Below are positions 2,940 to 45,982 of a DNA stretch of 64,000 bases, in pieces (the stretch's first letter is position 1; every line of letters begins with the position of its first letter). The notes under the pieces were generated by a model. The model was not told where the DNA came from and ran no database searches. It was given only the letters and a program-made list of their open reading frames with translations. The translations under genes and the position numbers were made by a program. This stretch comes from Strigamia acuminata (Eukaryota; Arthropoda; Chilopoda; Geophilomorpha; Linotaeniidae): positions 8,556,001 to 8,620,000 of the forward strand of contig OX442323.1 of NCBI GenBank assembly GCA_949358305.1, written 5' to 3'.

Positions 2940-4196
2940 ATGAATTGCTGCGTAGTTCTTTTGTTTTTGGTTTTGGGCTGCGCTGCAGCAAACGCCGAAC
3001 TGGTAAGCCCACGACAATACATGTATAATGTCTAGTAATTTTGAGTGTTATTATGTTTTGTAATATTTTAATCTAGGAAAATTGTCGTAAACCAATGGAA
3101 CCGGTGATATATTTGTCTCAACATTTTGACACATTTTATCTGAATGTTATAAATTAATACGAAACAGGCAGATCCGAAAAACTCCCCAACACCATTTCAG
3201 AAGCAAGTTATAGAAAAATGCATGAAAGAAAATCCAAAATTAGTAAACGCAATAGTTTTAATCTTAGCTGACCATTAACATTATGGGAAAATAATTTATT
3301 CACAGGATAAAAATGGTGCCGTACAATGTTACCAGGACAAGGTAAAAACCTCTACAGTCTAAACTCTATATAACGAATCGCAAGGGACCCGAAAAATCGA
3401 TTTATTGTAACGAGAATTAGTTGTGTAGGAATTTTTTAACATGGTGTTCTATGGCCAGCCAACCAAACCAGCCATTTTTAGGTATTCGTTACATTCATAA
3501 TTCGTAATATCGTGATTCGTTGTAAAGAGGTTTGACTGTACTAATAATCAACGATTTTTATAAATTCCAAATAAATTCAATTCCAGAGGCAAGCAGCACT
3601 TGAAGCATGCAAAACCGAAAACTTTGTAAGTAAAATTCAAATCTTTCTATTCAAATTTTAATTAATCGACAACAATAAAGGGCTCAATGGAAAAAGGTTT
3701 CTGCGTGTTCAAACAATTGGGAGTTGTGAGTCACATTATTCCAATCTTTTTCAATCTGTCGAAATATTTTTATTTGTACTTATTAGAAAGATGAACTTTT
3801 TTATGATTTCGCAAAATACAAGGCTCACATGATTGCTGAAGTACTAGATAATGTAAGCTTAAGTTGAATTTGAGAATTTATAAAAGGAACAATTTGTTGA
3901 CGCAAATTTGTGTAGAAAAAGAAAATAGTTGAAGAAGCGATAACTCCGTGCGAAAAGGAAAAAGTAAGTTGAATTGAAAACCATAAAACAACAAAAATAA
4001 TGCTGCTTTTGTATTAGTATTACGTGGACTGTGGTCATATAAACTTGGCAAAAGTATGTACAAAGATTCTCATAAGTATCTGTACAAATTAAAATTAATA
4101 CGCGAATGTGGTTTTCTTTCAAAGGTCTGTCTGGACTACAAGCAACGACTAGAATACATTGAGGAACTTAAGGGAAAAAAAATAATGAATAAATAA
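2940..4196 (+). CDS. U1: ten-exon secreted cysteine protein of the microexon family
   Basis: I do not recognise a named family. The exons are 2940-3002, 3077-3103, 3168-3242, 3306-3341, 3587-3625, 3681-3725, 3787-3852, 3916-3963, 4018-4053 and 4125-4196. All introns are phase 0 with GT-AG ends, and the product is 168 residues. Exon 1 is a complete signal peptide (hydrophobic core, small residues before the end). The mature part has eight cysteines, one in each of exons 2, 3, 4, 5, 6, 8, 9 and 10. The last four follow C-x40-C-x8-C-x8-C, like the second half of odorant-binding proteins. The start was chosen because it directly follows the TATA/initiator promoter and begins the signal peptide. 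AATAAA follows the stop. A secreted ligand-binding or effector role is inference only. Confidence 0.85.
3353..3540 (+). mobile_element. MITE in intron 4 of U1
   Basis: It has inverted ends: TACAGTCTAAACTC on the left and a right end whose complement reads TACAGTCAAACCTC, followed by ACGAATC-type sequence. It lies in intron 4, and related copies occupy intron 4 of U3, U7, U8 and both halves of U9. The insertion therefore predates those duplications. Confidence 0.75.
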
Positions 4197-5398
4197 ATTT
4201 CTTTGACAGCCGATAAACTGTCACTTATTCTCACACTGTACTCCAAATCCATTTCGCAACAGTTTTTACTTGGACCTTATGATGAAAATAATAATCACCA
4301 GTGATTTAGGAGAACGTTGTATCAGAACAGAGTATAGAATATATTGAGGTGGACACAACAACTACGACCATCCACTGGTGATGAAAGTAACAAATGAAAC
4401 GACGCCCAGTCATGGAAACTCACAATGCTGGAGACTGCAAACACTATTTTTTTTTTACAAACACTTTTTGTTACTTGTGAAATAACCACAGCCAACGACA
4501 ACAACGCAGCAACCATTCAGGCTACCGATTTCACGTGGTTCTGCGTTAGTGACATATAAAACATTTTCAAGTTTAATTATTTTATCATGGTTGCCATTTT
4601 TCACACAGATTTTAACACATTCTGTGCCCTCACTAATAAGCATTTCATAAGATGCTGCAGTTTTAATTTTTCGCTTGCTCACCAAATCTGCAAAAAAAAA
4701 AACATCAAACAAGTTATGCGTCTCATTTCGCATTTAATATTCAATTTCTCACGAAATATTTGAATAAATAAAGATGTCAAAAAAAACAATTTTTATAAAA
4801 AAAATAATGCTATTATTACAAAAAAATTCTTAAATTTTATTTTTAGTTATTACTTTAATAATTCCCCGATTTATTTTCATGGAAACCCCTGAATTAATTT
4901 TATGGGCTTCCCCATTTGCTTAAGTTCGGACTATAAGACGCACCCTAATTTTTGCTCGACCTTTCGAAGTAAAAAAGTGCGTTTGATGGCCTGCAAAATA
5001 CGGGAATCATTTAATTTAAATTAATTCTTTCATTTGATAACATCCGTCATCAAATTACCAGTTATTTTTACAAAGTATATTTCTTGTTACTCGTTTTCCT
5101 ACGTCATGACATTCATTTAAAAACAACAACTTAAAACCTACATCAATCATTATCACGTTTAAATGGAGCGAACCTCTGTGCTAAAAATATTTTTTTTTTA
5201 ATTAAAACAATAATTGTCGTAAATAAAATAGAAAAAATTAGAAGGAAATTAGTCGCAGCAAAATTGCCAGCTGACAGATGGCAAACACATGGAAAACATT
5301 TCTCCTGAATGATGCAATATCTCTTTTATTCTTTACTCTGTTGCATATAAACCCAATTCTCCGCATTAAACGTCCTCATTCACCACTAAATCGCAACA
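4197..5398 (+). other. Intergenic region between U1 and U2
   Basis: It holds the 3' flank of U1 (polyadenylation signal, CTTTGAC motif), a copia-derived fragment on the minus strand (4455-4733) and AT-rich DNA. A TATA-like box at about 5344 serves U2. The stretch 4200-4740 is the partner of 7890-8350, downstream of U3. Confidence 0.6.
4455..4733 (-). pseudogene. copia-type retrotransposon fragment (post-protease segment)
   Basis: The minus-strand reading frame contains an N-V-L-Y-V-like block typical of the region after the aspartic protease in Ty1/copia polyproteins. It closely matches the fragment at 8103-8674. Nothing else of the element remains here. It was probably duplicated together with U1/U3. 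Confidence 0.55.
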
Positions 5399-5816
5399 AT
5401 GAAGTACTTTGCTCTTCTCTTGTTGGCAGTCTGCACCGTAGTGTCCACCGAAGAGGTAATCACCCAAAAACCTTCTTTTAAACAATTTCTAATTAACTTC
5501 AATTAGGAAAACTGCTTCGATGAGGAAAAACTTAAATCGGCGAGCAAACAACTAACGACAAAAGTAGTGGCAAAATGCAAAGAAGACATCGCAAGAATCG
5601 TAAATATATTCTGCGGCTCCATCTTGAGCCTTTGATAGTGTGACCAATTTTTAAAAAATTTCAAAAAATTTATATAACTATAAATTTATTTTGAAAAATA
5701 ATAAATTTATGATTTAGTTTCCTGGAAATGTGGTCACCCTAGCTTGTGATATTTGTCTTATATTTATCTCATAATTCTAGAGTGATTCTGACGCTAATGG
5801 GTGTGGAGCAAAGAAG
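5399..5816 (+). pseudogene. U2: truncated microexon family member
   Basis: Three phase-0 exons are visible: 5399-5455 (19-residue signal peptide), 5507-5599 (31 residues with two cysteines) and 5781-5816 (12 residues with one Cys, ending at a GTAAAT donor). The exon lengths (31 and 12 codons) resemble U12 exon 2 and the family's exon 4. After 5820 the sequence runs into the duplicated 5' flank of U3 and no later exon is present, so the duplication appears to have removed its 3' half. A short product made by reading into the intron cannot be excluded. Confidence 0.65.
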
Positions 5817-5869
5817 GTAAATAGTTATTAATCTTAAATAGTTAAAGATTATTTAAAGATTATTTAATA

Positions 5870-6629: not shown

Positions 6630-7882
6630 ATGAATTTCTGCGTAGTTCTTTTGGTTTTGGCTTTGGACTGCGCTGCAGCAGCCGCCGAACTGGTAAGCTC
6701 ACGACAATACATGTATAATGTCTAGTAATTTTGAGTGTTATTATGTTTTGTAATATTTTAATCTAGGGAAATTGTCTTAAACCATTTGAAAAGGTAATAT
6801 AATATATTTATCTCAACATTTTGACACATTTTATCTCAATGTTATAAATTAATGCGAAACAGGCAGATCCGAAAAACTCCCTAACACCATTTCAGAAGCA
6901 AGTTGTAGAAAAATGCATGAAAGAAAATCCAAAATTAGTAAACGCAATAGTTTTAATCTTAGCTGACCATTAACATTATGGGAAAATAATTTATTCACAG
7001 GATAAAAATGGTGCCGTACAATGTTACCAGGACAAGGTAAAAACCTCTACAGTCTAAACTCTATATAACGAATCGCAAGGGACCCGAAAAATCGATTCAT
7101 TGTAACGAGAATTAGTTATGTAGGAATTTTTTAACATGGTGTTCTATGGCCGGCCAACCAAACCAGCAATTTTTAGGTATTTGTTACATCCATAATTCGT
7201 TATATCGTGATTCGTTGTAAAGAGGTTTGGCTGTACTAATAATCAACGATTTTTATAAATTCCAAATAAATTCAATTCCAGGTTAAAGCAGCATTTGAAG
7301 CATGTAAAACCGGAAAGATTGTAAGTAAAATTCAAATCTTTCTATTCACATTTTAATTCATCGACAACAATAAAGGGCTCAATGGAAAAAAGTATCTGCG
7401 TGCACAAACAATTGGGAGTTGTGAGTCATATTATTCCAATCTTTTTCAATCTGTCGAAATATTTTTATTTGTATTTATTAGAAAGATGAACTTCTTTATG
7501 ATTTCGCAAAATACAAAACTCGAGAGCTCGCTGATACACTAGATGATGTAAGCTTAAGTTAAATTTTAGAATTTATAAGAACAACAATTTGTTGACGCAA
7601 ATTTGTGTAGAAAAAGAAAATAGTTGATGAAGCGATAACTCCGTGCGAAAAGGAAAAAGTAAGTAGAATTGAAAACCATAAAATAACAAAAATAATGCTG
7701 CTTTTGTATTAGTACTACATGGACTGTGCTCTTATAAACCTGGCAAAAGTATGTACAAAGACTCTCTTAAGTATCTTTACAAATTAAAATTAATACGGTA
7801 ATGTGCTTTTCTTTCAAAGGTCTGTCTGGAGCACAAGCAACTACAAGAATTGATTGAGAAACTTAAGAAACAAAAAGAATAA
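6630..7882 (+). CDS. U3: ten-exon secreted cysteine protein, sister of U1
   Basis: Exons: 6630-6692, 6767-6793, 6863-6937, 7001-7036, 7282-7320, 7376-7420, 7482-7547, 7611-7658, 7713-7748 and 7820-7882. All are multiples of three, giving 165 residues. Introns and flanks are close copies of those of U1, while the coding differences include many amino-acid changes (exons 2, 5, 7 and 10). It has a signal peptide in exon 1, eight cysteines in the family positions and the C-x40-C-x8-C-x8-C end. Exon 8 (the T-P-C-E-K-E-K block) is almost unchanged between paralogues. The function is unknown; it is probably secreted. Confidence 0.85.
7048..7235 (+). mobile_element. MITE in intron 4 of U3
   Basis: Same element and same position as 3353-3540 in U1. 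It marks common descent of the two genes. Confidence 0.7.
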
Positions 7883-10268: not shown

Positions 10269-10288
10269 ACCAACAAGTATCAAAAGCA

Positions 10289-12411: not shown

Positions 12412-13871
12412 ATGAATTCCTACCGAATTCTCCTGACTTTGCTATTAGTCTATGCTACAACAGCTGTCAAATTGGTACGTCCATAACAATACAATATCCA
12501 ATTATATTAATGGTTTATTTTTTATTTTTCTATTTTAATATAGGAAAAATGTTTGAAGGAGGAGAATGAGGTGACATAGTGTATTTATCTAAGCAATCTG
12601 ATAAATTTTACTTCAATGTTAAAAACTAATGCGCAATAGGCAGATGAGAACAGTTACGAGTCGACATTTGACAAGCAAATTAAAGCAAATTGCAAGAAAG
12701 AAAACCCAAAATTAGTAAACACAATAGTTTTAATCTTAGTTGACTATTAACAATGAGAAAATAATTTATTAACAGGATGACAAGGGCATCAAACATTGTT
12801 ACTTGGACAAGGTAAAACCTCTGTTAATCATTATTGATGTTTCTAAATTCTGAATGAATTTAATTCCAGATCAGAGCAGCAGAAAAAGCATGCGATACCA
12901 CAAAGACTGTAAGTTATATTCATAGTTTTCAATCCACTAATTAATTAATCACCAACAACAAAGTGGTCAATGGAATACGACATGTGCATGGACAAACAAC
13001 TGGACATTGTGAGTCGGAATTATTTCAATCTGATTCAATCTGACGAAACATTTTTGTTAATCAGACCAGGAAAAATCTGTACGATTTCCAAAGATGGAAG
13101 ACCCATAAGCTCAACGATGCGCTAGACGAGGTAAGTCCAATATACAGGGTGTCCTAAAAGTCTGGTTCCCTCCAAATATTTCCTGAGCAATTGCATCTAG
13201 GCCAACTTTGATGGGTGAGAGCAATCCAATGACGTCATCAAATTTGACCTTGAAGGTCATTTTCAAGGTCATTCACTTTCTAACTTTTAAACCGTTTAAG
13301 ATACAGCAAAATTTCCAATTACAAAGTTGTAGAGCACCATCAAATTAGTACTATCCAACTTATTTTAGTTATCTTAAGATAAATGTTTCATAACGCGCGA
13401 TATCGCAGTAACGCATGGCAGCGCTATTCATTTGCGCGACATCGGATGTAAGAATTATTCTCACCCAACTTCCTATACGATCGCTTCATCAAAGTTGGCC
13501 TAGATGCAATTGCTCAGGAAATATTTGGAGGAAACCAGACGTTTAGGACACCCTGTAGAATTAAAAAAACAACAATTTGTTGAAGCAAATTTGTATAGAA
13601 AAAGAAGACAGTCGAAGATGCCTTAACTCCGTGCGAAAACGAAAAAGTAAAGTGAAATTAAAAACCACAAATAACAACCTAATTAATAATGCTGTTGTAT
13701 TAGTATTACTTGGACTGTGCTCGTATAAATTTGGCAAAAGTACGTAATAAAAACAAATCTAATATTCCCACAAATTTACATCAATAATACGCTTTTCTTT
13801 CAAAGGTCTGTTTGGAGTACAAACACCTACTAGAAGAGATTGAGAAAGAAAACGCACGAAAGAATGTATAA
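12412..13871 (+). CDS. U5: ten-exon secreted cysteine protein
   Basis: Exons: 12412-12474, 12544-12570, 12640-12714, 12776-12811, 12870-12908, 12964-13008, 13065-13130, 13599-13646, 13704-13739 and 13806-13871, all phase 0, giving 166 residues. It has a signal peptide of 21 residues, then eight cysteines at family positions with the C-x8-C-x8-C end. Its closest relative is U10; the two share a tryptophan-start exon 6 and an F-Q-R-W-K motif in exon 7. Intron 7 is expanded by a foldback MITE (13145-13555) that U10 lacks, so that insertion is younger than the duplication. U6 follows only 55 bases after the stop. The function is unknown. Confidence 0.83.
13145..13555. mobile_element. Foldback MITE in intron 7 of U5
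   Basis: The ends CAGGGTGTCCTAAA are inverted, with TA at 13143-13144 and 13556-13557. The arms share long stretches (ATTGCATCTAGGCCAACTTT) with the larger element at 51420-52183 and with a fragment near 15200-15310. Tc1/mariner-type ends; non-coding. Confidence 0.8.
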
Positions 13872-13926: not shown

Positions 13927-15052
13927 ATGCAACACTGCCATTGCAGCGACGCACGTGTTGGAGATCGTTTGGACACCTATGGAAGGTAAATAAAACATTT
14001 CTCCGATGTTTGATTAACACATTGCAGTCGATGTTTGAAGGCAGCACATTTCGGACGGATCTATTGGCCTAAATACTTGGACGACAAATGCAAACAAGAA
14101 AACCCGAATGCGGTAACTGTTTGTAAATGTTCGACTTTTACGTTTTTCTTACAAAAATATCATGTAAATAGATACACAGCGTCGTGGAGGAATGTACCAG
14201 AATTAAAGTAAATATTAAGGGGTTTCATAAATGATGCGCTGAAGGCGCTGAAGTGATTATTCCAATAATCACAATTGCTGCATTATTGAAGACCCACGCA
14301 ATGGATTATATTACTGTCACATTACTTATGTTTAAAGCATGAAAAGCTCCTTTTTCAGTGATTATAAATAATCGCTGAAACGTTGAAGCGATTATTTATG
14401 TGATTGGCCGACACAAGTCACATGATAATCGCTTCAGCAGAATAATCGTCATAATCGCTTCAGCGCCTTCAGTGCATCATTTATGGACCCCCTGTTGTCT
14501 GAATTTTATTCGCCAATACCTAAAAATACTTGTTTTGACAGCTCGATGAAATTCATAAAACGTGTACCGTTGCAAAGGAATTTGCCCCTTGCGTGCTCAA
14601 ACATTTTGCTATTGTAAGGTGATTTAATTAAATTTGATTTAAATTAATCCAGTTTTGATTCAATCTAGAAAGTACCTAGCAGAGATGAGCTAATTGAAAA
14701 GTTTAAAAAAGCAATGGAGTTTATAACGGACGAAAGTGTAAGTTAAATTGTCGTATTAATTGAATTTTGAAATTAATAAAATTTAACGATAATTTTATAG
14801 CAAACGAAGGTTGTTCGTGAGGTCGTAGCAACCTGCGCATCAAAAGTGGTAAATTTCAAATTTATGCACTCACACGGAGTAAAAAAAACTATTTTTAAAA
14901 CTAAAATAAATTTATACAAACAGAAATTCGCCAAGTGCAGTTTTGAAAAATTATTAGAAGAGGTAGGTTTGTTATCAATTCTAAAATTGCAAATGTTCAT
15001 TGTCACTTTGTTTTCCCAGTTTTGTCTGAAACCAGAAGAAGAAAAAGTCTAA
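13927..15052 (+). CDS. U6: short-subtype family member, 5' end uncertain
   Basis: Proposed exons: 13927-13985, 14028-14112, 14172-14207, 14542-14613, 14669-14737, 14801-14848, 14924-14962 and 15020-15052, giving 146 residues. From 14172 onward all introns are phase 0. The exon at 14542-14613 has 24 codons and two cysteines, as if family exons 5 and 6 were fused. The end keeps C-x8-C-x8-C after a 41-residue gap. The first exon has an ATG but no signal peptide, and the intron after it is phase 2, unlike the family. The same reading frame is open in U11, which argues for coding. It begins right behind U5, so it may once have been the second domain of a U9-like gene. The 3' UTR resembles that of U9. 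Confidence 0.6.
14217..14496. mobile_element. MITE in an intron of U6
   Basis: The inverted ends contain CATAAATGATGCGCTGAAGG and its near-complement, with internal palindromes of AATCGCTTCAGC. The same element lies in the same intron of U11 (42044-42955), so it was present before the U5+U6 cassette was duplicated. Confidence 0.7.
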
Positions 15053-30487: not shown

Positions 30488-33400
30488 ATTCAGCTTCGTC
30501 TGCGCCAGCCGCGGAAATTAAAAAGAAGAAATATCACACTGGACCCGCAGGTCATGCCTTGGCAGAGGCACAGATCAAAGACCGCATACAGATCGTTCCG
30601 AAGAAGGAGGAAAAAGTGACGTTAACGAGTATGCAAGTGAGAACGAAACCGGAGGTCGACATGGATTGGACGGACCTTCCGTTCAATCTGGAGGTTGAGC
30701 CCCAGACATTACGCGTATTTCACTGCAATGTCACGAAAGCACATTGCGAAACTCTGTGTATGCTGCCAGTGGAGATAGAAAACCAAAAATTGTTCGGTCT
30801 ACTGGATTCAGGAGCGGATCGTTCATTCATATCCGAAGATATAGTAAAAGACTTGGATATTGGAAAGAAGGTGGCACAAGTGAACGCGAACGTAGAATTG
30901 CTCACCGCCAACGGCTACGTCAAGCCGAAGGGCGTAGTTCGCATCATGATCGACTGGACGGGGGGGAACCTGTCCCACCCCTTCATAGTCTTGCCATCCC
31001 ACGACAAAGTATTCCTCCTAGGGATGGACATCATGGCGAAACTGAAAATTCAGCCAAACCCGATAACCCGTTCATGGAACTGGATAAGTCCCGAGGGAGA
31101 ACGGTCAGTCCCCGTAGTTCCCCAAAAATTACTGGACGAAGCCAAGGACAAAGAGGAATACGGAAGAGGATTGCGAAAATTCGTCCAAGATTACGATTTC
31201 GCAGCCTTCACTCTGGAATTACAGAGAAGTAACGTCGTGGACACCCTGGTCGAGGAGGCAGCACTGCGTGTTAACGAGGCATCGCTACTAAGGCGAGTGC
31301 TTCGAAAGCATGAAAGAATTCTGACCAAGACACCTGGTCGAACGACGGAAGCAACACACGAAATAGTCTTAACCACAGACAAGCCGATTCGAGTGCCTTA
31401 CAAGGGGATGAACCCCCAGAAAAGAGACATCGTGACGCAAATGTGCCAAGACATGCTCGACAAGGGCATAGTAACGCAAGCCCTGGGCGAATACGCCATG
31501 CGGATCGTCCTGGTGATGCGTCCAGGCTCGGAACCTCGACTATGCATTGATTATCGCCCCCTGAACGCGATAACGGTTATAGACCCGATTCAGATGCCGT
31601 CTATAGACTCGATCCTCCGGGAACTGAGCCCGTTCAAGTGGGTAACCACCATGGACCTGTCAAAGGGGTATTGGCAAGTGGAGCTAAAACCCGAAGACAA
31701 ACTGAAAACGGCTTTCTACTCCCCGATAGGAAGACTAATGTTCAACGTGATGCCGTTCGGGCTTGTAAACGCCCCGAGCACGTTCCAGAAACTGATCGAA
31801 AGCGTGTTGGGAGATATGCTGCACGACTTCGTGTGGGCGTATCTCGACGACATCATAATAACGTCGGACACATTCGAAGAACATATAGACCACATCGATA
31901 GAGTGGTCTCTCGCCTAGCCAAGGCAGGACTCCACATCCATCCAGGGAAGAGCAAGTTTTGCAGGAAAGAGCTTGCCTTCCTAGGATATCGAATAGGAGT
32001 CGAGGGAATCGCGATTGACCCCGAAAAAGTCAAAGCAATAAACGGATTCCCCGCCCCCGAAGATATAAAAGGTGTCCAGAGATTCATGGGCATGGTCAAT
32101 TTCTTCGGCCGACTACTCTCTGGTCTGGCTGAAGTGGCCGCGCCTATAACGGATCTCTTACGAACGGATAAAGAGTTTGAGTGGACGGTCCAGTGCGAGG
32201 CCGCATTTAGCACTATCAAGCAAATGCTGGCTGACGTCGAAAAGATGCCATTGCCGGACCTAAACCGACCGTTCGTGTTGCACACCGACGCGAGTAAAAT
32301 CGGACTGGGTGCAGCCCTTCTGCAGACCCACGTGTACAACGGAATCTCGCAAGAAGTACCCTGTATGTTTATAAGCAGAAAAATACAGGGCGCGGAGAAA
32401 AATTATACGGCAACGGAACTAGAATGCCTAGCCGTAATTTGGGCAGTTCGGAAATTTCGCGACTATCTGGAGTACACGAACTTCGAGGTTCAGACAGATC
32501 ACCAGGCACTAAGCTGGTTGATGAAGCTCAAGGAACCCTCCGGCCGACTCGCACGATGGCAACTGGAGTTAATGGCGTGCGATATAACAATTACGTACCG
32601 CCCCGGGAAGTACAATCATGTGGCCGACGCCCTCTCGAGAGCCCCAGCCTCTGACCCCCAGGGACCAGACGACGACGGCGAGGACGACACCCACCTCTTG
32701 TACTGCCCGACTCCACGGAGAATATGGCGTTTGCGAAAGGCGAACGAGCTACCAGTGATGGAGCCTGAAGATAGAACGTTTTGTGGTTTTTGGACTCGAA
32801 CATACCAGCCAGCTGGGACAAACAATTCAACATCCGAAATTCAATCTCCGCCCCCCGGAGAAACCCACAAAACACTACTACGCGCCTTCACAGCAAAAAT
32901 TGAAGAAAAAACACAATACGCTCCACCCACGAGACGTGAGTTCGTCGAACACCAGGCAGCAGACACAAAATGTCAAATTATAACGCAATATTTGCTGAAC
33001 GGCGAATTTCCGGAAGGGATGACAAACCCACACCGCCGGAAACAGTTCGTCAAAGAAGCAACAAGCTACCTCATAGATGATGAACTCCTGGTAAAATACC
33101 ACCCGACGTTTCAAGATGACCTCAGCGGAGCGGGAAACTCGGTTAAAGTGGTCGTGCCGGCATCGCTGCACACCCGACTGTTGTGGCTGATGCACGGACA
33201 CCCGCTCGCCAGCCATTCTGGCGTGGCGAGGACCCTTTATCGAGTAAAACAACTTTTCTTCTGGCCGGGCGCGCGGCAAAAGATAACGAAATTTATCCGA
33301 CACTGCCCCCGGTGCCAAGCGTGCAGACCGCGAGATAAAGTGGCCAGAAACGCCATGTCTCTCGGACCCTACGCACCGTTTGACTGCTTAAGCATAGACT

Positions 33401-34590
33401 TGATGGGCCCCAAGCCCACAACGGGAAACAAGAACATGTATATTCTCGTAATTATGGACGTGGCCACCCGATGGCCGGAGCTGTACGCCCTCGCGAAGCC
33501 CTCGGCTGAAAACATAGTCGAGTGCCTTTACGACGTGGCAATGCGATTTGGGTTTCCCAGAAAACTCATTTCGGATAACGGCCCCCAATTCCGATCGAGA
33601 ATATATAAGGACTTCTGTAGAAAATTTAAAATGGATGCATCAAACACCTCCACGTATAATCCTCAGACAAACCCAGTCGAGAGATTAAATAAAGACATAA
33701 AATATGCGCTGACAGTATTCACCGATATTCACAATCGATGGGACGAATACCTGCGAGAAATCGCTTTCAGCATTCGCTCAACCGTGTCAAGAACACGCGA
33801 ATTCTCACCGGCGTACCTCAACTTCGCCCGCGAATTAAGGATGCCATGGGACCCACGCGTTGCCGAAGCTGTTAACGTATTAGACCCATCGAGCCCACAC
33901 GAGTACGTGTGCCGGTTGGAACAGACTATATCCGACACATACCAGCATATGATGGCGCATATTTTCAACATGAGAGAAAGAATCGCAGATAAAGAAGGCG
34001 ATCTCGCTTTCGCGAACTTTAAAGTGAATGATCTAGTGTGGAAGGAGGCACACACGTTGTCCAACGCAGCGAGGGGCATCGCCGCCGGTTTAGCCGACAA
34101 AAGGGACGGTCCCTATGTAATTGTGGCCGAACACGGCGGCAACGCATACCAACTACGCCGCTTAGAGGACAACAAAAATTTTCAGTCGATACATGGCCGA
34201 GATTTAAGGCCATACCTGCCAGAGTTTCCCCAAGAAATCTGGCTGGAAGGTCAGACACACAGCGGCCAAGGGGGCACCGTGGTCGACACGTTCCAAAAAA
34301 CAAATGAAGCTGAAAATATAGCGGAGGACGAGGATGAATTCTTCGACGCCGAATCTCCGGCCGACGAGGCTCCAGCACAGCCGGAGCAAGCAATTTCGGA
34401 GAGGGAGGAAGCAGAAGAAAGTACTTCTGAAATGGAAAATAAAAAAATTAGTAATGAGAAAAATGCCAACACATCGGAGATGAACGAGCAAGTAGAGTCA
34501 CGATCTACGAGCACGTCGAAAATCAACCTTCGACCACGACGAAGCAATAATCCGTTCATTCGGGACGGCAAAGTCGTGGGGAAGAACTAA
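30460..34590 (+). CDS. gypsy pol polyprotein
   Basis: The pol frame is open from 30448 to 34590 and has no early ATG, as expected for frameshift expression. Domains in order: aspartic protease (D-S-G at about 30805); reverse transcriptase with the YLDD catalytic box at 31840-31851; RNase H (H-T-D-A-S at about 32280, D-H-Q-A-L at about 32500); integrase with an H-H-C-C zinc domain (about 33190-33320) and the D-D-E core (I-D-L-M-G at about 33395, S-D-N-G at about 33571, a glutamate in the P-V-E-R-L block at about 33676). The tail is acidic and serine-rich. All catalytic residues I looked for are present. RT-RH-INT order is Ty3/gypsy type. Confidence 0.9.
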   Translation, partial: LPSAGVAEINSASSAPAAEIKKKKYHTGPAGHALAEAQIKDRIQIVPKKEEKVTLTSMQVRTKPEVDMDWTDLPFNLEVEPQTLRVFHCNVTKAHCETLCMLPVEIENQKLFGLLDSGADRSFISEDIVKDLDIGKKVAQVNANVELLTANGYVKPKGVVRIMIDWTGGNLSHPFIVLPSHDKVFLLGMDIMAKLKIQPNPITRSWNWISPEGERSVPVVPQKLLDEAKDKEEYGRGLRKFVQDYDFAAFTLELQRSNVVDTLVEEAALRVNEASLLRRVLRKHERILTKTPGRTTEATHEIVLTTDKPIRVPYKGMNPQKRDIVTQMCQDMLDKGIVTQALGEYAMRIVLVMRPGSEPRLCIDYRPLNAITVIDPIQMPSIDSILRELSPFKWVTTMDLSKGYWQVELKPEDKLKTAFYSPIGRLMFNVMPFGLVNAPSTFQKLIESVLGDMLHDFVWAYLDDIIITSDTFEEHIDHIDRVVSRLAKAGLHIHPGKSKFCRKELAFLGYRIGVEGIAIDPEKVKAINGFPAPEDIKGVQRFMGMVNFFGRLLSGLAEVAAPITDLLRTDKEFEWTVQCEAAFSTIKQMLADVEKMPLPDLNRPFVLHTDASKIGLGAALLQTHVYNGISQEVPCMFISRKIQGAEKNYTATELECLAVIWAVRKFRDYLEYTNFEVQTDHQALSWLMKLKEPSGRLARWQLELMACDITITYRPGKYNHVADALSRAPASDPQGPDDDGEDDTHLLYCPTPRRIWRLRKANELPVMEPEDRTFCGFWTRTYQPAGTNNSTSEIQSPPPGETHKTLLRAFTAKIEEKTQYAPPTRREFVEHQAADTKCQIITQYLLNGEFPEGMTNPHRRKQFVKEATSYLIDDELLVKYHPTFQDDLSGAGNSVKVVVPASLHTRLLWLMHGHPLASHSGVARTLYRVKQLFFWPGARQKITKFIRHCPRCQACRPRDKVARNAMSLGPYAPFDCLSIDLMGPKPTTGNKNMYILVIMDVATRWPELYALAKPSAENIVECLYDVAMRFGFPRKLISDNGPQFRSRIYKDFCRKFKMDASNTSTYNPQTNPVERLNKDIKYALTVFTDIHNRWDEYLREIAFSIRSTVSRTREFSPAYLNFARELRMPWDPRVAEAVNVLDPSSPHEYVCRLEQTISDTYQHMMAHIFNMRERIADKEGDLAFANFKVNDLVWKEAHTLSNAARGIAAGLADKRDGPYVIVAEHGGNAYQLRRLEDNKNFQSIHGRDLRPYLPEFPQEIWLEGQTHSGQGGTVVDTFQKTNEAENIAEDEDEFFDAESPADEAPAQPEQAISEREEAEESTSEMENKKISNEKNANTSEMNEQVESRSTSTSKINLRPRRSNNPFIRDGKVVGKN

Positions 34591-34970: not shown

Positions 34971-37900
34971 ATGGCCGATCGACGCAACCCACGATTAGAG
35001 CCGAGCGCATCGTCGAGAGACGAGAGCGACGGCCTAATCGTAAATGCAGAAGAAGATGAGAATTGGGACGAACAACCGCCGTTGCAGGTAAATTAGTGTG
35101 ATTTCCCCAGAGAAATCACATAATTCTTTGAATCTGTTGCATCCAACCCAGATTGGAGCGTGACTTGTGACTGATATATTTCTTTCTGTTTTATTGTTGA
35201 TTTAAGGCTGGCTAAAAACCCGAGAGTGGACCCAGATTCACCTCGGAGTCAAGGCCGCCAAAAAACTAGAACAAAGGAAGTGTTCGCGGAATGGCGTCGT
35301 GGCAAACCAAAACCAAAACTAAAGGTTTTCTTTCTTTTAAATTTAAACATCGTAATAAATTAAAATACGATTAGAGTTAAAATAAAAAAGTTTAACGTAA
35401 GAAATTAAAATTTAACGATCGGTTTTGCCTGCGACCCCTTCCAAAAAAGCGGATCACCTGAGTTCAAAAGTAGTGTTGGATCAGCGCTACGACGGCGGAG
35501 ATCATCGCAGAACTGCGAAACAAGAAAATAAGACCGACGGCCGCAACAAAAGAAAGGAGTTGCTGCCACCGTCGATCTTGAGCATATTTCTGATCCCCAT
35601 CGTTAACTGGGATTTATTATATTAATCTTGTGATCTAAAATTATTCAGGTCGACCCGCTAGAATCGTGGGACGCCCTGCCTCCGACGGCGTCAACCGCCA
35701 ACAACATCTTTCGCGGAGCCCTGCCGATTTACCTGCGGCAGGCCTATCCTGCAGAGACCAGCGCCTGGAAAATCCGATTGATGTATTCCAGGACCCTCGA
35801 GGAAAAATTCGAGCGATCAAAAACGCTGGTCGAGTGCATGACGAAGGAGATGAGGGAGCGAGTGGGGCCGCGGATCCCACCCGATGCGGATCCGCCGAGC
35901 CCCGTTTACTCCGGGTACCTGGAAGAGGCTTACCCAGGCACGGTGGCCGAGCTGCACACCTCCCATAGGTGGAGCGAGGCCCCGACCTTGGCAGCCCGCC
36001 AGAGAATAGTGGACGACGAGATCAAACGCTTAAAGCGCACCGAGACTCACGGAGTAACCCGAGTTCTCGAGAGAAACGGTTTCTCCCCCGAAGAAATCCG
36101 TAGATGGCTTCGCGACATCGAAGAAGATCATCTGACACCCAGATGGATACCGCCGGCGAATTTTACGGCCACGCAGTCTGAGATGTGGCAGTTATACCAC
36201 GCTGGTATCCTGGGAAGTCGCCGCCATCACAGAAGATCGAAGCGTCCGGCGGAGTCCGCCCCACGCGGACCCGCACGAAGAAGACAGGCCGTCTCCCCAA
36301 TAGAGGCCGGCCCGTCAACGAGCCGCGACTACCGCAGCCGCTCGAGCAGCTCCAGTTCCCGAACTCGAGTTGTCGTGCGCTCGGAGTGTCGCCGAGTAGT
36401 AACGCTCGAGCCTGCCTCGCCAGACGACGCGCGGGCTGAGCGAACAGTCGAATCTTCCGCCCACTGGGCTGCGAGGACCGAGACACACCAAGATCGAGGA
36501 AAGAAAAGATCCTCGTTGTTCATGGCGATTACCACACAGTCGTCAGATCAATCCTCGTCGCGACGAACCGTCTCATCACACCAGAGACCGAATTCTCCGA
36601 CGGACGTCCCCCAGAGGACGGCCCAACGAAGATCCGTCGCAGCCAGCACCCGGAGGAATCGAAAGCGCAAAGTACGTCAGAAGTTGCGAGCACAATCCCT
36701 GATAGCTAAGGGATTAGAGAAGGAGCGAGAGATGGCCGCCGCGAAACGGTCCGAACCCCAGAGTCTCGGACCCACGGCTGGACCGTCCAGGCGCCAAGCA
36801 GAGATTGATTTGGGAGAGTTGACGGAAGAGCAAATGTCCCCAGATGAGTCGGACAAAGATGGGCCGGTTACAAAACAGGATCTGGCCGTAGCATTGAAGA
36901 ACGCCTTCCGAGGATACGCGGCCAACCGGCCGTCGGGCTCAACACCGGCTGTGCCCACCGCGCTTGTGCCCCCACAAGTGCAATCGCGATGGCCGCCACT
37001 CCTCGAGGGTACAAACCCAGCCGTGACCGCTTGGACCCCTCCCCGGATGATTCCGGTGGGGGATCCAGCTCCGAAGCGGGTCAGATACGATAATCTACCC
37101 GGGCTGGGCCGTCCACCGTCACCCCCAACGCCACGAGTGTGTCGACCTTATCGCAACGCCGAATGGTACGCCCAGCGAGAGATGGACGCTCGATGCCGGC
37201 GTGAAGCGGCCTATCCCCCACTCAGCGAGCTACAAGAATATCTGGCCGAATACGAGAACCCCGCGATTGCCGAGTTGGCCATACGACAGGCCGACGCCGC
37301 CCAAACCCACCACATCAATTGGGCGATCGAACAGATGCGGACGCTGTCACAACAATTCAGTGGCAATCCGGACCGCGCTCACCCCTGCCATCGGAGCAGT
37401 TTGAATTTGGCAGTGACGAACGTCATGGCCCAGCTGCTGTCCCTGGGCGTCTTCTTGGACAGTCGGCAGGCTATGGCGGCCTGGACAATCGTCGACCGTG
37501 AGGGAGTTCACCTTCCTCGGGCGTTGTACCAGGTATGGGCCGGATGGACTCCTGAGCCCGCCTCGCTGCGCTTCGACCTGGCCAGGAATACGGAGAACCC
37601 AGGCCTGCAGTTTTCGAAGATGCGTTCGTTGGCATTCCGCTACCGGAACCCCGGAGTCCACCCTTCCTTGTTGCGAACAATTCGGGAGGCTCCGGAGATA
37701 CCGGGAACGACAGCGAGCCTCCCACAGGCCATCGAGACCGCCCCCCCAGAGGCGGCGGTCCAACCATACATACCGACCCCAAAGCCGGTATTCCAAAAGG
37801 AGAAGCGGTATGCGAATCGACCCAAATTGATTCCGAAGCGCTCCAACCGAGGACCGCGAACTCCTCCGCTGCCCTCTCCTTCGCCACCAGCGGCAGAGCT

Positions 37901-38435
37901 GGCCGCTCTTACAACAGAGCCGGCTACACCACCGTTGGAGAGTCCAATGGAGATTCCACTTCCTCCATCGCCTCCGCCGCCCCCAGCAGCGCAGCTTTAT
38001 TTGAGGCTGGGAGTGGAATACCCCTTCCTTCAGATGTCGGAGTTCACGCGACAACGCATCATTGACTCCGATGATCACGGCGAGTCGGTCCTCAAATGGC
38101 TGAACAGAGAGGCCCGATCTACCATGGACGCCGTCTTCCATCGCCGAATCTTGCGAGCCCACCGGAAACCCGGATCGAGCGCCGAGTCGCGAAGGATCCG
38201 GCTCGTTCCCGACCGATTCCCGGCATCCACCCGGATTTGGATCCACGAACGTACGGGACTGATTGGCGAGCCGGTCGGCGGTCACCCGCAGTACTTCATC
38301 AACGAGCGACAGAATCCTGCGGATCTGACAACCTCTCTGCCCCCGGATTTACCACCGCCGCCCCCGGCAGTGCCACCAGTGATCCTCCGCCCATGCAGAG
38401 GAGTGCTGCCGGCTCTTCGCAGAGGAGAGCGATAA
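34971..38435 (+). CDS. Third ORF of the gypsy element, probably spliced, function unknown
   Basis: Exon 1 is 34971-35087 (39 codons from ATG, donor GTAAAT). Exon 2 starts at 35649 behind a TTATTCAG acceptor and stays open to 38435, giving about 967 residues. The join is phase 0. An unspliced version could start at the ATG at 35778 (885 residues). The product has Arg/Ser-rich (about 36240-36420) and Pro-rich (about 37840-38000 and 38330-38380) stretches and no signal peptide, transmembrane segment or zinc knuckle that I can see. I do not recognise it, and it does not look like an envelope glycoprotein. It may be an accessory nucleic-acid-binding or structural protein. Splicing is inference. 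Confidence 0.65.
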
Positions 38436-39299: not shown

Positions 39300-39303
39300 A
39301 GCT

Positions 39304-39942: not shown

Positions 39943-41045
39943 ATGAATTCACATCGAGTTCTCCTGATTTTGCTTTTGGTGTACGTTACAACAGCTGCCG
40001 AATTGGTACGACCATGGCAATACAATATCTAATAATATTGAAGTTTATTATTTATTTTAATATTTTGGTATAGGAAAACTGCTTAAAGTTGGAGAATGTG
40101 GTAATGTAGTGAATTTATCTAAATATTCTGATAAATTGTATGTCAATGTTAAAAATTAATACGCAATAGGCGGAAGCGAATTTCGAGTCTTCATTTGACA
40201 AGCAAATTAAAGAAAATTGCAAGAAAGAAAACCCAAAATTAGTATACACGATTGTTTTAATCTAAGTTGACTATTAACACAATGAGAAAATGATTTATTA
40301 ACAGGATGGTAACGGCGTCAAACGTTGTTACTTCGACAAGGTAAAATTTCTATTAATCACTATTGATCTTTCTAGATTCAGAATTAATTCAATTCCAGAT
40401 TTTAGCAGCAGATAAAGCATGCAATAACAACACGATAGTAAGTTAAATTCATATTTTTTTCAATTCACATATTAATTAATCAACAACAATAAAGTGGTCA
40501 ATGGAATACCACATGTGCATGGACAAACAATTGCGAGTTGTAAGTCAAATTATTTCAATCCGATTCCATCTGACGAAACATTTTCATTTTTACTTATCAG
40601 ACCAGAGCAACTATGTACAATTTCCAAAGATGGAAGACCCATAAGCTCAATGACGCGCTAGACGATGTAAGTTAAATCTCGATTTAAAAAAAAAAAAACA
40701 TTTTATTGAAGCATTTTTGTATAGAAAAAAAAGCCAGTTGAAGATGCCTTAACTCCGTGCGAAAACGAAAAAGTAAAGTGAAATTAAAAACCACAAATAA
40801 CAACCTAATTAATACTGCTGTTGTATTAGTATTACTTCGACTGTGCTCGTATAAATTTGGCGAAAGTACGTAATAAAAACAAATCTAATATTCCCACAAA
40901 TTTACATCAATAAAACGCTTTTCTTTCAAAGGTCTGTCTGGAGTACAAACACCTACTAGAAGAGATTGAGAAAGAAAACGCACGAAAGATTAGGCGCATT
41001 CGAAAAGTAATTTGCACTAAACGACCAGTGCAACTGGTAGTGTAA
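39943..41045 (+). CDS. U10: ten-exon secreted cysteine protein with a MITE-derived tail
   Basis: Exons: 39943-40005, 40074-40100, 40170-40241, 40305-40340, 40399-40437, 40495-40539, 40601-40666, 40725-40772, 40830-40865 and 40932-41045, giving 181 residues, all phase 0. Closest relative U5. It has a signal peptide of 21 residues, eight family cysteines and the C-x40-C-x8-C-x8-C end. A MITE (40993-41686) landed in the last exon and displaced the old stop. The frame continues 53 bases into the MITE, adding about 18 basic residues and an extra cysteine before a new stop at 41043-41045. Whether the new tail is tolerated is unknown. Confidence 0.8.
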
Positions 41046-41686
41046 ATTTCAAGTTAAACGACCCAATTTTCGAGTTTCAAAATAAATTTCTGTGTAAAAT
41101 TCAGTAGTGTAAATTCAAGTGTAAATATTAAATTAGTCCAAATAATAACCATAGTCATTATTGTTGTTGTTTACTCTAAAAAAAAAACAGGAGATTATAA
41201 AAACATGATTATAAAATGTAAATTTATTTTAATTATTTGTATTATTAATATTTATTTCCGAACGGGAATCGGCTGAACATCCGCCTCAATCGCACAAACG
41301 CGGCCGAACGTCGGCCGAACGTCGGCCGCATTCGATTGTACAAATGCGGCCGAACGCCGGTCGGACGTCGGCCGTATTCGATCGTACAAATGCGGTCGAA
41401 CATCGGCCGCATTCGATCGCAAGAATGCGGCTAATACCTGCTAAAAAATTGTTCTTGCGATCGACATCGTTCCAACCGATCTAACGAAAATCCAAGATGG
41501 CTGCCAGCAAGACCCGATTTCAACGAGAAAACTCGTTGCACGGAGATTTTAAACGGAAACGTGGCGTACAGGCCGTTTCCGTTTAACCAGCTTACACGAC
41601 ATTTACACGAATTAATTCGTGTAAATGTCGTGTGAAAACGAGTGTAAACACGTTTACACTCGTTTTAATGACTTTTCGAATGCGCC
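40993..41686. mobile_element. MITE inserted in the last exon of U10
   Basis: The ends GGCGCATTCGAAAAGT are inverted, with TA at 40991-40992 and 41687-41688. The inside has a GC-rich tandem CGGCCGAACGTCGG array and an inner palindrome ACACGAATTAATTCGTGT. Non-coding by itself. Confidence 0.82.
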
Positions 41687-41751
41687 TATTGTATAAATAA
41701 TTTTCTTTGTTAACCCATCAGTCATCCGCTTATACCAAATACACTTTTTAC

Positions 41752-43490
41752 ATGCAACACTGCCATTGCAGCGACGCACGTGTTGGAGATCGTATGGACA
41801 CCTATGGAAAGTAAATAAAACATTTCTCCGATGTTTGATTAACACATTGCAGTAACTGTTTGAAGGCAGCACATTTAGGTGGGATTTATTGGCCTAAATT
41901 CTTGGATGGTAAATGCAAGCAAGAAAACCCAAATGCGGTAACTCTTTGTAAATATTGGACTTTTACGTTTTTCTTACAAAACTATCGTGTAAATAGATAC
42001 ACAGCGTCGTGGAGAAATGTACCAGAATTAAAGTAAATATTAAAGGGTTTCATAAATGACGCGCTGAAGGCGCTGAAGTGATTATTCCAATAATCACAAC
42101 CGCTGCATTATTGAAGACCCACGCTAGGTGGTGCCAGGTCCAATTGATTATATGTATTACTGTCACATTACTTATGTTTTAAGCATGAAAAGCTCCTTTT
42201 TCAGTAGGTGCGTTCAATTTGCGAAAGGAAAGAAGAATCTTTCCTTTCGTTACTTTCGCCACCTGAAGTGACGTCAAAATCGTCATTATTTCCGAAAGGA
42301 AAATGGCCAAAATTACTTTAGCCAAAGGTAGCATTTGGGTCACTTTTCCTCCTTTCACTTTTTACTTTCGCGATCGGCGCATGCGCAATAGTCGGCCACA
42401 CCAACAAAAAAAAAAAATGTTCGTTTTCATGTTAAAATATTCGTTTTAACGGTAAAACAGCAGTTTTAAGGTTAAAAATTTTGATTTTATGACTAAAATG
42501 TTTGTTTTTATGTTAAAAATATTTGTTTTAATGGTAAAACACCAGTTCGAATGGTAAAAACATTTTTTTTGTTTCTAACTATTTTTTTTAATTATAGGCT
42601 AAAATGACTGCTCAATCAAACAGAAAAAAACGTGCATTTGTTTGTACTAAAATCTGGATTTGTTTGTAATAAAATCTGGATTTGCGCATGCGCAAACGAA
42701 AAGAAAGTACCAATAATAAGTGCGTTCATTCTAAAGTAACTTTTCTTCCTTTGGCGAAATTAACGAAAGGAAAGACTCTTCTATTCTTTCGCAAATTGAA
42801 CGCACCTAATGATTATAAATAATCGCTGAAACGCTGAAGCAATTATTCATGTGATTGGCCCACACAAGTCACATTTTAATCGCTTCAGCAGAATAATCGT
42901 CATAATCGCTTCAGTGCCTTCAGTGCATCATTTATGAACCTCCTGTTGTCTGAATTTTATTCGCTAATACCTAAAAATACTTGTTTTGACAGCTCGATGA
43001 AATACATAAAACGTGTACCGTTGCAAAGGAATTTGCCGCTTGCGTGCTCAAACATTTCGATATTGTAAGGTGATTTAATTAAATTTGATTTAAATTAATC
43101 CAGTTTTGATTCAATCTAGACGGTGCCTAGCAGAGATCAGCTAATTGAAAGGTTTGAAAAAGCAATGGAGATGATAACGGACGAAAGTGTAAATTGAATT
43201 TTCATCCAAATTGAATTTTGAAATAAGTAAAATTTCATAAATTTTTATAGCAAAAGACGGTTGTTCGTGAGGTCGTCGAAACCTGTGCGCCGGAAGTGGT
43301 AAATTTATAATCTACATGCTCATGCGCAATAATAAACCTTTTTTTTAAACTAAATAAAAATTTATACAAACAGGATTTCACCAAGTGCAGTTTTAAAAAA
43401 TTATTAGAAGAGGTAGGTTTCTTATCAAATCTAAAATTGCAAATGTTCATTGTCACTTTGTTTTCAAAGATTTGCCTTAAACCAGAATAA
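41752..43490 (+). CDS. U11: short-subtype member, sister of U6
   Basis: Proposed exons: 41752-41810, 41853-41937, 41997-42032, 42993-43064, 43120-43188, 43251-43298, 43374-43412 and 43470-43490, giving 142 residues. Every exon boundary matches U6, and the frame is open throughout despite many substitutions, which supports real coding. No signal peptide is visible. The C-terminus is four codons shorter than in U6 and keeps the C-x8-C-x8-C end. The third intron is swollen by the shared MITE with a second one nested inside. It follows U10 as U6 follows U5, so the two-gene cassette was duplicated as a unit. Confidence 0.62.
42044..42955. mobile_element. Shared MITE in an intron of U11, with a nested MITE
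   Basis: The outer element equals 14217-14496 in U6. Nested inside it, 42207-42806 has inverted ends GGTGCGTTCAATTTGCGAAA and TA at 42205-42206 and 42807-42808. The uninterrupted site is seen in U6, so the nested insertion is younger than the duplication. Confidence 0.8.
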
Positions 43491-44626
43491 GAAAAAGTTT
43501 AAGCACGAATTTTGCTGTGTAACAAATATATGAGAAATAAAAAGCTATAAACAAAATTGGATATTCTTTTCTCGACAACTATCAACAATTTTTTCATTCA
43601 CTCAAGCTTGGAAGGAATCAAAACTATTTCGCACAGCATAAGCAATATAAAGGGTGTCCCAAAAATAACGCAAGATTTGAATTAGCCGCCATTTGTGCAG
43701 TAAATTGTTGAAACAACAACGATTTGACAGCTGAAAGTTTAGGGTTTTATCTGCCGAAATTGGATTACATTGATGTGGCCAATATGTGGTTTCAACAAGA
43801 CAGTGCCACATGCCATATTGCCATACAACCATGGAAACAATTCAATTACTGCATGAGACATCACCGGTTTCGGTGATCAGAATTGGCCCCTTTTTCTTGC
43901 ACCGTCGCTAACAATTTACTGCACAAATGGTGGCTAATTCAAATCTTGCGTTATTTTTGGGACACCCTATATTTGTCATACATTTTAATTCAGACCACAA
44001 AATTCTGGGGAATAAGGGTGATCGTGAGACGCATCCATTTTCACATCCTCAGAAAGAAACTTTTGGTCAAGAAATTCATACTTGGGCCCAAACGGCCCAA
44101 ACAATTAATTGTGAAACCAGAAAAGAAATTTTTGGTCTAAAAATCCATACTTGGACCCAAGAAATTAATTGTGAAACAAAAAAAACCTCATTTTAGGCCA
44201 AAATTATTAATTTTTTTGTGAAAATTTGAAAATGAATTTTTTCCATGAATGAAATCAGCTGCAATCATCTGCAAAACCACTCAAGCCGACCCTGGATACG
44301 ACATTCCATCAATAAATCGACATTTATATTTTTATACACGCATATTTTTGTAAACACATACTTCAACTTTAGTTTTATCAAACATTTTTATGGATATCCT
44401 CTTTTTGTCATTCGCTCAAGGATACGGTGTACCACACAAACACAAACACAAACACAATGAACTAAATCAGCAAATTCAATCAGATTCCCACACATTGTGT
44501 AGACTATACACACTTTGTGTCCTGTTCAATATGACATCCTCCTCTTTCATACCCTTTGCTTATAATAAGCTTGCATTCATCACCACAGTCGCAATTGCTA
44601 TTCCAACACAAGCAAAACACATCAAC
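43491..44626. other. Intergenic region between U11 and U12
   Basis: It contains the U11 3' UTR (shared with U6 and U9), a mariner-derived MITE (43651-43968), AT-rich DNA and a TATAATAA box at about 44561 in front of U12. Nothing else is recognised. Confidence 0.5.
43651..43968 (+). mobile_element. Deletion derivative of a mariner-like transposon
   Basis: The inverted ends AGGGTGTCCCAAAAATAACG extend for about 60 bases on each side, with TA flanks. At about 43772-43880 a short frame encodes a W-F-Q-Q-D-x-A-T-C-H block, the second catalytic aspartate region of mariner/Tc1 transposases. All other domains are gone. Confidence 0.75.
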
Positions 44627-45982
44627 ATGGCTTCTTATTTACTTTTGGTTTTCCTGTTCGCTTTCTGCGCTGCAGAAACCATCGAAGAGGTATACAACAA
44701 TCTTCAATATTTTTGCACTTATTTAATCTAAATATTTTGCTTGCATTGCAGATTTGTTTGAAAATACACAATGTGGTTAGAGAGTGTAAGAAAGCAGAAG
44801 GCAGAGAAGGATTCAGGCTCTGTCTGCTTAAATATTACGAACTTGTAAGTAAAATAAGTAAATTCAACAAAAATGTGGGATAGACATCTGTTACATCTTA
44901 TAAACAGGAGAAACAGCAGTCTCAAGAGGACGATTTGTACAATGGATACAGGGATAGATTGGCAAACTATTTCGAAGAAGAAACAGTAAGTTGCTTTTTA
45001 AAGATATCGGGTCAGATGAAATTAATTAAATGATTAACCACACACAGAAAAAAGAACAGATACGTGCGCTGCTTGTCTCTTGCATGGGAAAAAAGGTAAT
45101 TTCTATTTATTCATTTAGTTTAAGCCAGTGGTTCTGAACCAGGGGTGTACACTAGTGGCGTGACAAGGGCGAGGCAAGCGAGCAGTTGCCTCGGATGCCA
45201 AATCTAGAGGACGCTAAAAATGAATTTTTTCCATCGCAAAATGCATTGTTTTCTGCCTCGAAATGCATTTTTTTTGCATACAAAAAAGCCCAAAAGTGCT
45301 TTTTTTTCTGAAAATGAATTTTTTCTTCATAAAATGCATTCTCTTTTCACTAAAATCCCAATTTTCTCTCAAAAATCCCAATTTTTTCTCAAAAATCCCA
45401 ATTTTTTCTCAAAAATCCCAATTCTTTCTCAAAAATCCCAATTTCTCTCAAAAATCTCAATTTTCTCTCAAAAATCTCAATTTTTTCTCAAAATCCCAAT
45501 TTTCTCTCAAAAATCCCAATTTTCTCTCAAAAATCCCAATTTTCTCTCAAAAATCCCAATTTTCTCTCAAAAATCCCAATTCTTTCTCAAAATTTCCATT
45601 TTTTCCTCAAAAATCCCAATTTTTTCTCAAAAATCCCAATTTTCTCTCAAAAATCCCAAATTTCTCTCAAAAATCCCAATTTCTCTCAAAAATCTCAATT
45701 TTCTCTAAAAAATCTCAATTTTCTCTAAAAAATCTCAATTTTCTCTCAAAAATCTCAATTTTCTCGCAAAAATCTCAATTTCTGGCGAAACAGCTTACAC
45801 TATAAATTTACATTTACACACACTAATGTCTCCTTTATTTTACAGGATGTCCTCTTTTGTGGAATTGAAAAATTGGCAAATAGCGTATGTTATTTATATT
45901 TATTTTTAAAAAAATATTTATTAATTTTTGTTTGTTTTCAAAGGTCTGTCCTGCAATAAAGAAAGATATATATTGGACTTAA
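44627..45982 (+). CDS. U12: divergent six-exon family member
   Basis: Exons: 44627-44689, 44752-44844, 44908-44985, 45048-45095, 45846-45884 and 45944-45982, all phase 0, giving 119 residues. Exon 1 is a 21-residue signal peptide. Six cysteines follow C-x9-C-x11-C-x44-C-x8-C-x8-C. The last three exons match family exons 8-10 in size (16, 13 and 12 codons) and Cys placement, so it is a distant relative with merged or lost upstream exons. U2 may be of the same branch. Intron 4 is filled by a tandem repeat (about 45340-45785). The six-cysteine layout is the nearest to odorant-binding proteins in this window, but the first two spacings do not fit the classic pattern. Confidence 0.78.
45340..45785. 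repeat. Minisatellite in intron 4 of U12
   Basis: About 25 copies of a unit of roughly 17-19 bases, AAAATCCCAATTTTCTCTC. It creates long false reading frames of Ser, Gln, Lys, Asn and Phe. Confidence 0.9.

Follow-up and report, generated by a model that had tools for sequence, protein, structure and literature searches.

A tandem array of ten-exon, phase-0 microexon genes with a conserved cysteine frame and a possible distant resemblance to odorant-binding proteins

The array and its units

The stretch of DNA analysed here (the window, 64,000 bases, C11:8556001-8620000) holds a tandem array of small genes, most of them cut into ten very short exons, with a hydrophobic first exon and a recurrent set of cysteines in the encoded proteins. 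Positions are given in window coordinates unless prefixed by the contig (C11 or C3). Comparison of the sequence with itself revealed repeated blocks between 2900 and 41000, which exon-by-exon alignment resolved into nine plus-strand copies (A to I) of one ten-exon, phase-0 unit. For six copies (A-E and I) this alignment gave all ten exons; exon 7 of F, with a GC donor, exon 10 of G and exon 4 of H were located later, and a signal exon was not found for H. With U, J, K and L, relatives that are divergent or incomplete, the number of units in the window comes to 13. The first-pass annotation had described twelve plus-strand units with ten phase-0 exons of 27-114 bases. The array and its ten-exon structure stand; the count comes to 13 here, and the exons of the ten-exon units in the window range from 24 to 114 bases. 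The units are as follows.

2880-2939, plus strand: core promoter of unit A, TATAAA and a TCAGT initiator at a spacing of 31, with a 25-base 5' untranslated region
2940-4196, plus strand: unit A, ten phase-0 exons, 168 amino acids, eight mature cysteines
2940-3002, 3077-3103, 3168-3242, 3306-3341, 3587-3625, 3681-3725, 3787-3852, 3916-3963, 4018-4053, 4125-4196, plus strand: the exons of unit A (63, 27, 75, 36, 39, 45, 66, 48, 36 and 72 bases)
5399-5816, plus strand: unit U, truncated divergent copy with signal exon, fused exon 2+3 and exon 4
6630-7882, plus strand: unit B, ten exons, 165 amino acids
10289-11317, plus strand: unit C, ten exons, two of them (3 and 4) with an ambiguous start
12412-13871, plus strand: unit D, ten exons, the last with a possible alternative donor after 13865, right before the stop
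about 13947-15052, plus strand: unit J, divergent, exons 5 and 6 fused, eight cysteines, first exon boundary uncertain
15734-17111, plus strand: unit E, ten exons
18484-19706, plus strand: unit F, ten exons, GC donor at exon 7
21890-23628, plus strand: unit G, ten exons, exon 10 (23557-23628) without a stop and ending in GTAAGC
23692-25131, plus strand: unit H, exons 2-10, without signal exon
39943-41045, plus strand: unit I, ten exons, exon 10 running into an inserted element
about 41772-43490, plus strand: unit K, a copy of J downstream of I, first exon boundary uncertain
44627-45982, plus strand: unit L, the shortest member, six exons and six mature cysteines

Units A-F and I each span 1.0-1.5 kb. 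The few ambiguous boundaries concern exons 3 and 4 of C, where the starts may move by a few bases, exon 2 of I and the first exon of J and K. The independent evidence for the units is the recurrent, ordered match of all ten exons; a shift of the frame by one base brings stops into several exons of unit A.

The cluster spans about 177 kb on both strands and runs well past the limits of the window. When protein A was searched against the assembly (237,517,015 bases in 157 contigs), at least 27 matches were obtained, every one within C11:8532614-8575503. An upstream relative gave at least 37, a weak one on C3 and the other 36 within C11:8466965-8643371, and unit K at least ten, with seven in the cluster and three weak ones elsewhere; all of these counts are lower bounds. 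A chain finder applied to 145.5 kb of the cluster region, which is part of its full extent, returned 34 exon chains. Ten exons were found in 28 of them, one being a mis-join of G and H (window 21890-25131) and the remaining 27 being taken as the finder reported them; two of the 28 lie on the minus strand (C11:8536577-8537641 and C11:8551431-8553742). Reported chain scores run from 74 to 821, the real strand reaching 821 with ten exons, while the best scores in the controls (130 kb reversed and four first-order Markov versions, on one strand) were 17-20, with one exon. The finder accepts only stop-free phase-0 exons with an AG acceptor and a GT donor (or one GC form), so these features are not independent evidence. 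The array is confirmed as a real, lineage-expanded tandem family of microexon, phase-0 genes.

A TATA box followed 24-36 bases further downstream by an initiator stands ahead of 12 of 29 genes, whereas only 0.8% of random 140-base stretches contain such a pair, and in 20 of 26 cases AATAAA occurs no more than 60 bases from the stop. These counts suggest separate transcription units, at least for the genes with such promoter or end signals. Some neighbours may be joined. Exon 10 of G has no stop, ends in a donor and is followed after a gap of 63 bases by exon 2 of H, and for this reason G-H is probably one two-domain gene with H as the second domain. The possible donor in exon 10 of D lies just ahead of the stop, with J downstream, and D-J and I-K are perhaps two-domain forms too. 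Neither J nor K has a recognisable signal exon, and both have exons 5 and 6 fused. In unit U, exons after exon 4 were not found, and the sequence downstream carries a repeat in common with 2156-2480. Retrocopies, which would prove splicing, were not seen among the genome matches listed.

Several other features lie in or near the array. An element with inverted ends (40993-41686) is inserted in exon 10 of I, the C-terminus of which is altered relative to D. Between H and I, a GC-rich block at 27347-34590 holds two long plus-strand open reading frames for the gag and pol of a Ty3-like retrotransposon, and a further long plus-strand frame at 35778-38435 (885 amino acids, rich in proline and arginine) is possibly a second mobile element. 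At 193-1646 lies what is probably left of a Tc1-like element; its inverted ends are 28 bases long, and it has no open reading frame of 150 amino acids. Close to the array stands an intronless Hsp70 frame of 659 amino acids on the minus strand (54942-56921), and a C2H2 zinc-finger frame at 62837-63475 resembles the metal-response factor MTF-1. In the second half of the window, minisatellites built from 20- and 31-base units, some with higher-order periods, are found at 45352-45781, 47670-48176, 48979-49321 and 63767-64000.

Cysteine frame and rate of change

In copies A-I one cysteine is encoded by each of exons 2-6 and 8-10 (two by exon 10 of I) and none by exon 7; upstream copies are more variable, with two cysteines in some exons 5, 6 or 10. 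Apart from the missing signal exon of H, the alignments of A-I, with their hydrophobic first exon, agree with the first-pass annotation, in which a signal-peptide exon was accompanied by exons with mostly one cysteine each. Among 20 ten-exon proteins, exactly eight mature cysteines (C1-C8) are present in 17, nine in two and ten in one. The distance between C2 and C4 is 26 residues in 18 of the 20, with 25 and 27 in the others, and the gaps from C5 to C8 are 40-8-8 in 16 and 41-10(12)-8 in four. The bridge pairing was drawn without unit L, which has six of the eight cysteines. An upstream subfamily (L028-L034 and L070, C11:8464501-8558000) has proteins that start with MKSCF and show a C6-x10/12-C7 spacing. 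In two of the 20 compared copies, both from this subfamily, an extra cysteine lies nine residues past C8, near the position of C6 in Varroa OBP1.

Around the cysteines the sequence changes fast. The 18-member alignment has eight invariant columns, and seven of these are cysteines. The ratio of nonsynonymous to synonymous divergence (omega) has a median of 0.69 over the 156 pairs with synonymous divergence (dS) below 1 and lies at 1.0-2.2 in six of the seven closest pairs; the nominal values are 0.35 for J-K over six exons and 0.46 for G-H over seven exons, the latter with only five synonymous differences. In the mature part, nonsynonymous divergence exceeds intron divergence at P<0.05 in six of eight sister pairs. 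It is above synonymous divergence in five of the eight, significantly in none, and synonymous and intron divergence differ in four, a mismatch which means that constraint, or the way in which introns were aligned, may have lowered intron divergence. Rapid evolution upon a fixed cysteine frame is a fair reading of these data, and positive selection is no more than suggested.

Relatives of the family and what it may be

Searches with the profiles of Pfam and NCBIfam, the latter built for prokaryotes, gave no family over the cutoff in the members scanned (for Pfam, overlapping sets of 3, 18, 3 and 4 proteins), in keeping with the earlier statement that no named family is recognisable. In a large protein collection there was no homologue at E<=1 for protein A (30 candidates) or for the 18-member alignment (8000 candidates), a null result whose weight depends on the share of spliced eukaryotic proteins in that collection. 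A match to Ectatomin was rejected, being below cutoff in two members and covering 15-16 residues; enterotoxin matches obtained with a nine-member alignment disappeared with a wider one and were ascribed to chance, as were matches to DDX52, PhoU and the like.

Below threshold, the odorant-binding proteins (OBPs) recur as matches that make biological sense, although they are weak alone. Unit K matched the OBP profile PBP_GOBP (PF01395) with E=0.005 and 17.4 bits (cutoff 22) over positions 18-100 of the 113 in the profile. With the 18-member profile A2, two of the three sequences of the PDB at E<=10 were one cockroach pheromone-binding protein in two forms (E 0.42-0.47), and one of the four PDB matches of protein A was the chelicerate protein VdesOBP1, with E 6.5 over query residues 30-150 of 168. 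In hhalign, C2, C5 and C6 of the family were placed on C2, C3 and C4 of the Varroa protein with E 0.021 in one comparison, at a probability of only 2.3%. In shuffle controls, run with HMMER, 8 of 2000 shuffles (19 with the cysteines fixed) attained the score of K with a small OBP profile, and 32 (89) that of J. The family profile against the cockroach fragment was equalled by none of 1000 shuffles, and the upstream subfamily against OBP69a by 6 of 1000.

Other results weigh against kinship with OBPs, and none of the OBP matches of the family is significant. PBP_GOBP is under its cutoff in K and is not listed for the other members scanned, the 18-member set included. The nine-member alignment ranks the cockroach pheromone-binding protein (E 0.48-0.56, 14 listed) under four sequences of a single unrelated family, and the alignment of J and K retrieved no OBP. 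Against an insect OBP set, hhalign gave a probability of 0.2% and E 0.27. Unrelated Pfam families match equally well or better (Ectatomin 0.00055, NRN1 0.0017, SL4P 0.003, Sin3 0.0031; three members), and in one member Mt_ATP-synt_B reaches E 0.0078 over 113 residues. The scores of seven typical copies against the small OBP profile are equalled by 163-1085 of 2000 shuffles (255-1291 with cysteines fixed), that of L by 372 (595) and that of VdesOBP1 itself by 115 (125), so that none of these separates clearly, while the family profile against VdesOBP1 is equalled by 55 of 1000 shuffles (106 with cysteines fixed). The cockroach fragment had been chosen by its score, and with the upstream subfamily alone its score is equalled by 203 of 1000. 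When the fragment of VdesOBP1 was used as query, no other PDB sequence was retrieved at E<=10, insect OBPs included, which means that absent sequence similarity does not exclude an OBP fold.

Cysteine spacing points in the same direction as the recurring matches. The gaps of the family, 26-(12)-40-8-8, stand against 26-3-37-8-8 in insect OBPs (26-3-37-8-8 or 27-3-37-8-8 in the three compared). VdesOBP1 has gaps of 19-26-42-20-8 by the positions given in PMC8222343, and C1-x23-C2-x26-C4 and C5-x40-C6 of the family come near them; the x12 stretch and two extra cysteines differ from OBPs. Where insect OBPs have CxxxC, the family has x12 (x8 in J and K), which counts against the comparison, and unrelated cysteine-rich families may match such spacing too. 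Taken together, the spacing looks like that of an OBP in which the second and third cysteines stand further apart and two cysteines have been added.

Searches of the whole genome, six-frame and exon by exon, gave no PBP_GOBP, no OS-D and one borderline 7tm_6, a result that proves little. With Ubx as the query, homeobox matches were obtained at C3:19.07-19.49 Mb and elsewhere, and the best Ubx frame retains the motif after the homeodomain and lacks the long alanine run that is carried by the Ubx of winged insects. The absences, as negative evidence only, together argue against a typical winged insect. CCTAA repeats, corresponding to TTAGG telomeres, stand at two of the five contig starts read (contigs C1 and C11), and such telomeres fit an arthropod.

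With moderate confidence, we read the family as a highly divergent, OBP-like group of small, secreted, soluble carriers, probably helical and with four disulphides; homology to OBPs is suggested by the cysteine frame and the recurring matches. The ten phase-0 exons would be joined constitutively to encode a signal peptide followed by about 140 mature residues. Of the eight cysteines, C2, C4, C5, C6, C7 and C8 would be the counterparts of C1-C6 in insect OBPs, while C1 and C3 would add a bridge of their own; the predicted pairs are C2-C5, C4-C7, C6-C8 and C1-C3. Once oxidized to four bridges, the proteins would be released into an extracellular fluid and bind small hydrophobic ligands. After duplication, the copies may specialise, diverging in their preference for a ligand or a partner. 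A further idea, which we advance tentatively, is that phase-0 introns have cut a carrier-type scaffold so that almost every exon forms an interchangeable module with one half-cystine. The family would expand and diversify under selection by exchange, fusion or loss of whole exons, as one more independent invention of the secreted microexon design outside aphids and schistosomes. Examples would be L with six of eight cysteines, the fused exons 5 and 6 of J and K, and the two-domain form of G-H and perhaps of D-J and I-K.

The family could instead be a lineage-specific group of secreted effectors, from venom, salivary or other glands, with no link to OBPs, shaped by conflict with a host, prey or rival and convergent with the aphid bicycle genes or the schistosome microexon genes (MEGs). 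This explanation, doubtful but to be taken seriously, would account for the microexons, the hydrophobic first exon, the tandem expansion and the conserved cysteines on fast-changing sequence, for the excess of nonsynonymous over intron divergence and the high omega of close pairs, and for the failure to find a family over cutoff or a homologue in the large protein set. The absence of any pair with nonsynonymous divergence significantly above synonymous divergence, and the possible underestimate of intron divergence, tell against it, as does the OBP-like cysteine spacing, and OBP families also diverge fast. The generalized linear model (GLM) of gene structure published for bicycle genes rejects all 26 chains to which it was applied (one being the G/H mis-join), the largest P being 6.6e-15 against a cutoff of 0.72 in the paper, and thus upholds the earlier claim of a difference in intron phase. 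With phase 2 substituted, the five logits listed would all be positive (+2.1 to +2.8), indicating that intron phase alone separates the family from bicycle genes and that, apart from phase, its structure would pass the classifier. It is because of this rejection by phase only, and of the match to the ATP synthase B family, that the OBP-like reading was weighted down and the effector explanation up. The analogy with effectors made in the first-pass annotation may hold.

That annotation had also proposed that phase-0 exons are skipped, yielding isoforms with different disulphide sets. Every modelled internal exon is symmetric, so in-frame skipping is possible; D exon 10 may have an alternative donor, and two of the 20 proteins already have an odd number (nine) of mature cysteines. 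Nonetheless, shared ancestry alone accounts for the symmetry, and a protein that skips one exon among 2-6 or 8-9 is short of one half-cystine, where 17 of the 20 have exactly eight. The claim that the design serves disulphide-varied isoforms is not supported: skipping would turn the usual even number odd, an argument weakened by the two proteins with nine, and such a generator of diversity is speculative and very unlikely. That the array consists mostly of decaying, functionless duplicates is hardly credible. Partial or altered copies do occur (U, H, exon 10 of I, and J and K without signal exon) and omega is near 1 in several close pairs, but 28 ten-exon chains in 145.5 kb (one mis-joined), invariant columns that are nearly all cysteines and a median omega of 0.69, together with the lower nominal values of J-K and G-H, tell against this reading.

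Comparison with known systems

The family resembles insect OBPs in being a small protein with C-x26-C ... C-x37/40-C-x8-C-x8-C, and differs from them in the x12 (x8 in J and K) in place of x3, in the two extra cysteines and in its ten small phase-0 exons. Insect OBPs have a six-helix fold with bridges C1-C3, C2-C5 and C4-C6, and their genes also occur in tandem clusters. The chelicerate OBPs (VdesOBP1 and TurtOBP1-4) share a cysteine ahead of the C-x26-C pair, and the weak match to VdesOBP1 covers most of that protein. In contrast to the usual eight cysteines and 28 ten-exon chains found here, chelicerate OBPs have six cysteines, paired C1-C6, C2-C3 and C4-C5, and few genes per species, according to PMC8222343 and PMC8269058. 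The second OBP family of Tetranychus urticae, for which PMC8269058 gives 12 members and seven cysteines, is likened to the present one by description, not by sequence, as an OBP-like expansion specific to a lineage and with an odd cysteine pattern.

Bicycle genes likewise combine many small exons of a single phase with a signal peptide and fast evolution. Their internal exons are almost all of phase 2, with about 17 exons per gene (PMC9168663), and a saposin-like fold is described for their proteins in PMC13041983, whereas the modelled internal exons here are all of phase 0, a phase imposed by the finder. The MEGs share symmetric short exons and secretion, which is predicted here. They carry about 80% of their coding sequence in symmetric exons of 6-36 bp (PMC5825161), against 99 of 507 bases in exons of 36 bp or less in unit A. 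The KQY/KHI cassette effectors of the pea aphid also pair a signal region with miniature exons; KQY1a has 37 exons, 33 of them of 15 bp or less, over 45.7 kb (PMC7495047), while here there are ten exons in 1.0-1.5 kb.

In the open-access literature searched, most subscription journals lying outside this scope, no account was found of OBPs with microexons or of such a phase-0, small-exon secreted array. If OBP-like, the family would carry this protein class into another lineage, where it would have a new cysteine set and an extreme gene structure. It would also help to connect the OBPs of insects with those of chelicerates; the authors of PMC8269058 report having found no database evidence of an ancestor common to the two. 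If not OBP-like, it would be a new secreted family that has arrived at the microexon design known from gall effectors, with a different intron phase. Given that the bicycle classifier rejects it through the phase term only, exon size alone would not identify effectors of the bicycle type. The cysteine spacing hints that the proteins are distant kin of odorant-binding carriers and not of the gall effectors of aphids.

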